Of a stretch of DNA of 64,000 nucleotides, positions 52,953-58,820 are shown piece by piece. A program made the position numbers and the translations under genes. Numbering within the stretch: position 1 is the stretch's first letter; each line of letters begins with the position of its first letter. Location: the NCBI RefSeq assembly GCF_900129635.1, contig NZ_FSRB01000001.1, positions 2,395,501-2,459,500 on the forward strand, written 5' to 3'. The stretch comes from Singulisphaera sp. GP187. GTDB lineage: Bacteria > Planctomycetota > Planctomycetia > Isosphaerales > Isosphaeraceae. The notes beneath the pieces were generated by a model, which did no database searches, was not told the DNA's origin, and was given only the letters and a program-made list of their open reading frames with translations.

Positions 52953-53135
52953 ATCTTTCGCCTTTTCATAGAGGCGAGGCCGTTGGTCGCGGTCTACTTT
53001 TGATTTTTTGCTAACGACCCGATCCAGGGCTAGGAAGCCGCTCGCGACTCGTTCCCACGGTCCTCCGTGGGAATGCCGTCTTGGGCGCTCTGCGTCCTCG
53101 GCTTGCGAGGGCCAGACGACGCGGAGCGTCGGGGA

Positions 53136-55031
53136 GTGCGCCTGTAATTGCATTGAATCCGCAGGGTGTGAGTTCCTGCCGAAGTGTTCTGGCACTTCGT
53201 AACCGAGGGTAACTGCGTCGCCGCGAGGCGGGGTGGGAAGCAACCGTAGGTGAACGATCAGTCCGTAACGCAAGTAAACTCGATTCGGCCGACTGTCGTG
53301 GCGAGCCTGCTCCTCGATGGCGAAGCCCAATTGACGCATGGCCCCTCAGAAAGGGCGTCCACAGTGATGTGGTCCGGTAAGACCGACGCACAAAACCCCA
53401 GAATGGCGTCGGGACGACAGTAGGTTGTTGGAGACGGAATGATCGGAAGGTTCGATGACGAAACACAGGGAGACCTGGACCTCGCCAAAGCCGGTGTTCA
53501 TTGTCCCTGATAAGGATACGAAGAGCCGGGGGTCCAGGAGTCAGAGCACCCATAGTAGCGCAGAAGCCGGGTAACTCCGGTGGAGCGAAGGGGTGCAGGG
53601 AGGTGGAGACGCGATGTCCGATGCGAAGGAATTCCCACTGGAGGCAGTGCCCGCGAGGGCTAGGCGCGCCAGAGAGATCCCGATCCCATGGGTCTGGGTC
53701 GAACCGACGGTCTGGACGGAGCGGATGTTGACGGCCCTCATCGAGGGGGTCAAAGGTGGAGTCTGGTATAGCCTGATGGACAAGGTCCACCCGCAACGCG
53801 CCCTGTATACGGCCTACTCTCGAGTCGCCGCCAACGAGGGTGCCGCGGGCGTGGACCACGTGACCGTGACGATGTTCGAGGACCGCCTGGAAGAGAACCT
53901 GAAGGATCTCAGCGACGCCCTGCGTACGGGAACCTACCGTCCGCAAGCGATCCGCCGACACTGGATTCCCAAACCAGGAAACCAGGAGAAGCGTCCGCTC
54001 GGGATTCCCACCGTCCGCGACCGGGTGGTCCAGACGGCACTCCGGCAGGTGTTGGAACCGATCTTCGAGCGTGACTTCGCCGCGCACAGCTACGGCTTTC
54101 GCCCCGGCAGGGGATGCAAGGACGCGCTGCGGCGGGTGGACGAGCTGCTTAAAGGCGGATTCACCCATGTGGTAGATGCCGACTTGAAGAGCGATTTCGA
54201 CACGATCCCCCACGACCGCCTGCTGGCGCTGGTCGCCAAGAAGGTAGCGGACGGGAAGGTGCTGAACTTGATCGACGCGTTCCTGCACCAGGGCGTCCTC
54301 GACGACCTGGAGGTATCGACGCCCGAACAGGGGACGCCGCAGGGTGCGGTGATCAGCCCGCTGTTGAGCAACATCTACCTTGATCCGCTCGACCACCTGA
54401 TGGCCGAATCGGGTTTCGAGATGGTGCGCTACGCGGACGACGTCGTGATCCTGTGTCGAAGCTCGGAGGAAGCGGCCCAAGCGATGGCGGTGGTGCAGGA
54501 GTGGACGGCCTCGGCCGGCCTGACCCTGCATCCCACCAAGACGCGGATCATCGCCGTCAGGACCGAAAGCTTCGACTTCCTGGGCTACAGGTTTGAGGAC
54601 GGCACACGCCGCCCGCGACCGAAGAGCCTGGACAAGTTCAAGGAGACGGTCCGGACGAAGACCACGCGTACGACCGGGGGCAGCCTCTCCGCGATCATCG
54701 CTAGCCTCAACCCAACGCTTCGTGGCTGGTTTGAATACTTCAAGCACAGCCACAAGTGGACGTTTGAACGACTCGACGGCTGGATCCGCATGCGTCTGCG
54801 GAGTCTGCTCCGTAAACGGATGAAGAAACGAGGCCGCGGTCGTGGCACCGACCATCAACGTTGGCCCAACGCCTTCTTTGCCGACCATGGACTTTTCAGC
54901 TTGGAACGAGCCCATGAGTTAGCCAGTCAATCCTCTTTGAGGTAAAACCACCAACGGGAAAGCCGTATGCGGGAGATCCGCCCGTACGGTTTGGAGGGAG
55001 GGGGAGCGTAATCCGCTCTCCCTACCCCTAT
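53136..55031 (+). mobile_element. Group II intron, complete, 1896 bp
   Basis: The 5' end reads GTGCG (53136-53140), the group II consensus. Domain V is at about 54959-54992 with the AGC triad (54961-54963) and the pairing AAGCCGTA/TACGGTTT. Domain VI (54993-55031) ends CTACCCCTAT, with the likely branch A eight bases from the 3' end (AT fits the AY rule). The encoded maturase is complete. The joined flanks read GCGTCGGGGA + CGGCATTCCC; the uninterrupted repeat at 58763-58782 reads GCGTCGCGGACGGTATTCCC. This independently fixes both boundaries. Insertion is 4 bases past a perfect 6-bp hairpin, which is how class C introns choose sites; class assignment by structure was not made. Confidence 0.93.
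53614..54945 (+). CDS. ltrA: Group II intron reverse transcriptase/maturase
   Basis: 443 residues lying inside the intron (domain IV position). The RT core is clear: the palm motif AAGVDHVTV near the N-terminus, RPLGIPTVRDRVVQTALRQV, DADLKSDFDTIPHDRL, GTPQGAVISPLLSNIYL and the catalytic YADD (in RYADDVVIL). The maturase domain has the group II intron-specific pattern LNPTLRGWFEYFKHS. The protein ends after GRGRGTDHQRWPNAFFADHG and lacks the zinc-finger/HNH endonuclease, so it is an endonuclease-minus type. AGGTGGA precedes the ATG at 53614 by about 6 bases; an upstream GTG at 53593 is less likely. No stop or frameshift interrupts it, so mobility may be retained. Confidence 0.93.
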   Translation: MSDAKEFPLEAVPARARRAREIPIPWVWVEPTVWTERMLTALIEGVKGGVWYSLMDKVHPQRALYTAYSRVAANEGAAGVDHVTVTMFEDRLEENLKDLSDALRTGTYRPQAIRRHWIPKPGNQEKRPLGIPTVRDRVVQTALRQVLEPIFERDFAAHSYGFRPGRGCKDALRRVDELLKGGFTHVVDADLKSDFDTIPHDRLLALVAKKVADGKVLNLIDAFLHQGVLDDLEVSTPEQGTPQGAVISPLLSNIYLDPLDHLMAESGFEMVRYADDVVILCRSSEEAAQAMAVVQEWTASAGLTLHPTKTRIIAVRTESFDFLGYRFEDGTRRPRPKSLDKFKETVRTKTTRTTGGSLSAIIASLNPTLRGWFEYFKHSHKWTFERLDGWIRMRLRSLLRKRMKKRGRGRGTDHQRWPNAFFADHGLFSLERAHELASQSSLR

Positions 55032-55129
55032 CGGCATTCCCACGGAGGACCGTGGGAACGAGGATGATTCCTCGCTCTTTGGCGGGTCGTTGTTTATTGT
55101 TGGGTGACTGCGGTGATGCAAAGGCCGCT

Positions 55130-58659: not shown

Positions 58660-58820
58660 CCCCGGAGGCCGAAATTCGCGGGAGAAACTCGTTCCCAGGC
58701 TCGGCGTGAGAACGCCGTTCTGGCCGCTCTGCGGCCCCACCCGCCGGGGAAGACGACGCGGAGCGTCGCGGACGGTATTCCCACGCGGAGCGTGGGAACG
58801 AGATCCCGGTATCCTTGCTA
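58660..58820. repeat. Palindromic MITE-like element, type 1 (copy F)
   Basis: 161 bases, the inverted counterpart of 17305-17467, running from CCCCGGAGGCC to GGTATCCTTGCTA. It contains CGACGC-GGA-GCGTCG and the uninterrupted junction at 58772/58773 that corresponds to the intron insertion site in the type 2 element. Confidence 0.75.

Follow-up and report, generated by a model that had tools for sequence, protein, structure and literature searches.

A group II intron lineage, probably outside sampled class C, with proposed targeting of hairpins in dispersed palindromic repeats

We describe a group II intron of Singulisphaera sp. GP187 that very probably belongs to a distinct mobile lineage, without an endonuclease and outside sampled class C, which targets DNA hairpins and finds its landing sites in the dispersed palindromic repeats of each host. 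We regard a broader statement as evenly balanced: that this is a second, widespread hairpin-directed lineage outside IIC, with an EBS1 matched to host repeats and with non-autonomous transposons as genome-wide landing sites. The intron was studied in a window of 64,000 nucleotides (the whole stretch of DNA analyzed), which is part of contig C5 of a 10.69-Mb genome.

The intron is 1,896 nt long. It starts with GTGCGCC at 53136, terminates with CCCTACCCCTAT at 55031, and is followed by the 3' exon CGGCATTCCC from 55032. We classified it as group II owing to domains V and VI with the triad and a bulged A, the maturase open reading frame, and EBS1–IBS1 and EBS3–IBS3 pairings. The Rfam match to domains V and VI stops exactly at the 3' end of the intron, and an alignment of 34 introns yielded a fold of both domains that places the bulged A 8 nt from this end. 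The maturase scored above the TIGR04416 cut-off and has RVT_1 and GIIM domains; a profile domain search found no endonuclease domain in its 443 aa. The intron is predicted to splice and to be mobile. The features of the locus are as follows.

53012..53135, + strand: 5' part of the interrupted type-2 MITE (TAACGACCCG... inverted-repeat end), with ends defined on other copies
53117..53131, + strand: target hairpin CGACGC-GGA-GCGTCG, read in the sequence, present at 11/11 filled sites, with hairpins in the equivalent place in relatives
53132..53135, + strand: GGGA spacer, the unpaired part of IBS1, from the EBS1 pairing
53136..55031, + strand: group II intron, from 11 copies with identical ends and RF00029
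53311..53316, + strand: EBS1 (UCCUCG), the sole alignment column complementary to IBS1 in 35/37 introns, with a permutation test
53427..53427, + strand: EBS3 (G), from pairing with the first 3'-exon base in 32/35 introns
53614..54945, + strand: reverse transcriptase/maturase, 443 aa, without an endonuclease domain (TIGR04416, 392 bits; RVT_1, GIIM)
54958..55031, + strand: domains V and VI, AGC triad, bulged A at 55024 (RF00029, 55 bits; covarying fold in 34 introns)
55032..55092, + strand: 3' part of the interrupted MITE (...GGCGGGTCGTTG end), from the sequence, with MITE ends from other copies
58763..58782, + strand: empty site in a type-1 MITE (GCGTCGCGGA/CGGTATTCCC), from the sequence and the core search

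The genome contains 11 full-length copies of the intron, which are 99.3%–100% identical and share both ends exactly. All 11 occupy the homologous position of a repeat core, each with the same hairpin. This core (CGACGCGGAGCGTCGNGGA/CGGCATTCCCACG) is common to two repeat families of 185 and 202 bp, which we classified as MITEs since they are short and non-coding, have inverted-repeat ends, occur in many copies, and show target duplications (8 bp, seen at copies L018, L021, L027, L031, and L035). The MITE interrupted in the window measures 185 nt when the intron is left out of the count. Ten of the filled sites are in type-2-like MITE copies, some of them truncated or chimeric, and one is in a type-1 copy. 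A search allowing at most three mismatches recovered 95 uninterrupted cores on three contigs (reversed control pattern: 0), and thus 11 of about 106 core sites are filled. The maturase frame is intact in 10 of the 11 copies; in L009, it is shifted by an 8-bp duplication (AAACCAGG) at intron positions 836–843.

These data agree well with a preliminary description of the locus. Its hairpin, 4-nt spacer, intron ends, and intact maturase frame in the window copy were confirmed on rereading the sequence, and the joined, intron-free site differs from the empty site at 58763–58782 by exactly the two mismatches it had reported. Where it had placed the boundaries by that one empty site, they are now fixed as well by the 11 copies with the same ends, the 95 empty cores, the Rfam end at 55031, and the fold. 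The proposal that a dispersed repeat serves as a family of landing sites also held, with 11/11 copies at one core position and ∼95 similar sites empty; we encountered neither copies at unrelated sites nor ends lying elsewhere. The further claim that such sites are harmless to genes is borne out in the window, where the intron sits between a DUF1501 gene on one side and a sulfatase gene on the other, and is presumed for the other ten copies.

We scanned one genome per species and obtained 80 related introns (44%–84% identity). By record title, their hosts are Planctomycetota, Acidobacteriota, Thermodesulfobacteriota, other former Deltaproteobacteria, Pseudomonadota, Cloacimonadota, Verrucomicrobiota, and others, although many of these records are bins from metagenomes and may be mistitled. 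The intron of a contig titled Armatimonadetes is nearly the same as that of a genome from the host's family (the L045/L126 pair), reflecting either mis-binning or recent transfer. In 38 introns, the 5' end was located by the GTGCG motif and the distance to the open reading frame, not by exon structure. A hairpin with a score of at least 15 preceded 84% of these 38 lineage introns versus 4.9% of 1,140 random positions, a comparison in which the introns share kinship and are not independent observations. The 3' arm of the hairpin ended mostly 2–4 nt upstream of the intron, and the hairpin sequences were mostly unrelated to each other.

To locate the exon-binding sites, we aligned the 5' regions of 37 introns and scanned every column blind for complementarity to the exon end. 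The EBS1 loop is complementary to the final three bases of the exon in 35/37 introns and to the final four in 34/37, with 19 distinct IBS1 sequences represented; no other column exceeded 46%. The mean number of contiguous EBS1–IBS1 pairs was 5.24; in 20,000 permutations, this value averaged 1.27 and never rose above 2.70. The EBS3 column (window position 53427) pairs with the first base of the 3' exon in 32/35 introns, including all six whose exon begins with A. The same blind covariation scan gave no EBS2–IBS2 pairing above permuted controls, and therefore the hairpin stands where IBS2 would be. At position −4, where EBS1 has U, the motif (G/A)GGA occurs at 10/11 filled versus 37/95 empty sites (p = 0.002). 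The MITE palindrome had been named as the target in the preliminary description; its position stands, and the target itself is refined to the hairpin, 4–6 nt of IBS1, and one IBS3 base. The MITE in itself is not the target, given that the hairpins used by relatives are unrelated in sequence.

The alternative that survives best, though we consider it unlikely, is an ordinary class C (IIC) intron whose preference for hairpins is simply known IIC behavior. The closest solved proteins are IIC maturases, the hairpin habit is common to both, and divergent class C members have been published (PMC3552965) that lie outside the reference set used. Against this, the domain V triad is AGC in 34/34 lineage introns and CGC in all class C references read (L132, L133, and L175–L179), and RF02001 (D1–D4) matches three class C references at 136–144 bits and gave no match in 12 lineage loci; in the Cupriavidus member L174, RF02001 scores weakly, at 34 bits. 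IQ-TREE recovered the lineage and class C (nine rows) as separate groups at 100/100, with g1 and g3 rows nearest to the lineage at moderate support (85/82), in trees that left out the divergent class C members (PMC3552965) and class F/variety g5 (Ge.ur.I1, So.us.I2, Pe.th.I2). The spacer also differs, being T-rich in class C controls and 2–4 nt without a T run in the lineage, as does IBS1, at ∼5 nt versus 3–4 in IIC (PMC7923331). Among the features that mark class C, the lineage thus has the hairpin in place of IBS2 and lacks the maturase clade, the CGC triad, and the RF02001 match. Owing to its separate clade, its AGC triad, and the lack of an RF02001 match, we did not file it as class C. A tree uniting the lineage with class C as sister groups is not rejected (p-AU 0.35), and we therefore make no claim that hairpin use arose independently, by convergence.

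Introns L132 and L133, carried by relatives, are true class C introns that follow terminator-like hairpins with T-rich tails, so both kinds of hairpin-using introns occur in this class of bacteria. A 'Kuenenia' record had pointed to the class F intron c-Ku.st.I1, but this link was rejected: the record (L123 in G059, titled Candidatus Kuenenia stuttgartiensis) is probably mistitled, since it gives the same hits as G023, which belongs to the host's own family.

A distinct hairpin-targeting lineage, the reading we prefer, is further illustrated by the repeats of other hosts. The palindrome ATTCCSGC-N4-GCSGGAAT occurs 213, 90, 60, and 36 times in the genomes carrying L078, L079, L087, and L071, respectively (controls 0), and GCGGGCG-NGA-CGCCCGC has 77 copies in the genome of L049 and 113 in that of L086 (one control match each). 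The hairpin family of L048 is found in 22 places versus one in the control. We inspected ten empty repeats from each of two genomes. After the hairpin, ACTC (10/10) or GCTC (9/10) matched the IBS1 of the resident intron, and the following base was C in 9/10 and 10/10. The empty repeats of these two genomes hence carry the IBS1 of the intron and the next base, such that EBS1 and EBS3 suit the host repeat.

Could the hairpin be incidental, with plain sequence-specific homing to IBS1 and MITE sequence? Within the host genome, all 11 targets have ∼40 bp in common, including the hairpin sequence, and as many as 9 exon nucleotides could pair with EBS1; what is seen locally could therefore be due to sequence alone. 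We still judge this explanation improbable, more so than class C membership: Most relatives are preceded by hairpins, mostly of unrelated sequence, and no EBS2–IBS2 pairing was detected. In addition, different hairpins precede nearly identical introns; L074 and L109 are 99% identical over the aligned 5' part and both have the IBS1 CTA, yet their hairpins are CGCAGAA/TTCTGCG and GGCGGA/TCCGCC.

The 9-nt pairing in the window intron joins 53127–53135 of the 5' exon with 53311–53319, and five of the nine exon nucleotides belong to the 3' arm of the hairpin. As the pairing reaches the stem, the base of the stem may open in competition with hairpin recognition or after it. In single-strand DNA folds, the inner hairpin formed in several empty MITE copies; in others it did not, as pairing between the MITE arms can extend over their full length.

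That the intron was carried inside a MITE by MITE transposition, and did not home to each MITE, is highly improbable: The MITEs are mobile, as their 8-bp target duplications attest, and every intron copy is within MITE sequence, but near-identical introns sit in 5' MITE flanks of only 63%–96% identity, two MITE families and chimeric copies are occupied, and the arm mismatches of filled copies recur in empty ones. Among filled copies, MITE flank identity averaged 75% on the 5' side (100 nt) and 79% on the 3' side, and the outer flanks were 61% identical, roughly the level of a global alignment of unlike sequence. Near-identical introns in diverged flanks imply independent homing, site by site; judging by these alignments, the intron recently entered MITE copies that had already diverged, one by one. 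Co-conversion of the 3' arm by the intron was rejected, as empty copies carry the same arm mismatch.

We noted several other aspects of the host genome. In L002, L007, L014, L029, L034, and L039, the MITE core is fused to a third repeat (CTATGC[C/A]TTACCCACAAGT... or its complement); this fusion in both filled and empty copies indicates that the repeats form chimeras. All 11 introns are on C5, yet C3 and C4 hold 32/95 empty cores (Fisher p = 0.03), which could reflect local spread or a separate contig origin (assembly contamination is given as 5.8%). Two short matches of 82%–88% identity, L012 (C5:776015–776055) and L013 (C5:67748–67796), correspond to intron positions 418–458 and 1852–1896 and are probably fragments of other group II introns, or else remnants. 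GC skew places the origin near 4.8–5.4 Mb, with dnaA at 4.83 Mb, and the terminus near 2.2 Mb. By this map, 7–8 of the 11 copies have the lagging-template orientation, which does not differ significantly from all empty sites (p = 0.53 or 0.19); a difference (p = 0.03) appeared only against pairable empty sites, under one of the two origins tried.

Under the mechanism we propose, the RNP would reverse splice into the strand carrying hairpin, IBS1, and IBS3, 2–4 nt downstream from the hairpin. As in the structure of the E. rectale IIC intron (PMC10190682), the hairpin would be recognized by its shape, and the bases after it would be read by EBS1–IBS1 and EBS3–IBS3. Other introns that lack an endonuclease are reported to prime cDNA synthesis at the replication fork (PMC4424553), and this one may do likewise. 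Since short palindromes are dispersed in host genomes, a fitting EBS1 would open tens to hundreds of near-equivalent sites. In Singulisphaera sp. GP187, the repeat is the core common to two MITE families, with 11 of its roughly 106 sites recently entered.

If hairpins are used by a second lineage whose domain V differs, this would matter for the origin of shape-based DNA recognition in retroelements. The 11 filled and tens of empty near-identical sites on one chromosome amount to a natural experiment in target choice. The use of dispersed palindromic repeats as low-cost targets also suggests why such repeats persist alongside other mobile elements.

Insertion at hairpins is already known, and in the literature consulted it is described for IIC introns only (PMC10190682, PMC7923331, PMC4424553). 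These insert just downstream from a DNA hairpin, using IBS1 and IBS3 and no IBS2 (PMC10190682, PMC7923331); the 5' hairpin is considered unique to them (PMC10190682), with all other lineages homing to sequence (PMC4424553). In a literature search that covered subscription journals incompletely, we found no account of a separate lineage on dispersed palindromic repeats with a host-matched EBS1, nor any description of introns in REP-like or MITE repeats. The lineage resembles group IIC (GsI-IIC, the E. rectale IIC intron, and introns inserting at terminators or attC) in having an upstream hairpin and neither an endonuclease nor IBS2. It differs in its AGC triad and separate maturase clade, in its longer IBS1 pairing (∼5 nt versus 3–4; PMC7923331), in a 2- to 4-nt spacer without the T-rich run of class C controls with a readable 5' end, and in targeting dispersed palindromic repeats and not terminators or attC. 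With varieties g1 and g3 and class F (PMC3552965, PMC4244168), it shares the lack of an endonuclease domain and an AGC-type D5; an adjacent hairpin was not seen in the g1 and g3 references, though their 5' ends are less sure. Finally, the insertion sequences that target REP palindromes (PMC1525189) likewise use dispersed palindromic repeats as a target family, but they are DNA transposons, whereas the intron is a ribozyme retroelement with RNA-guided recognition of exon bases.
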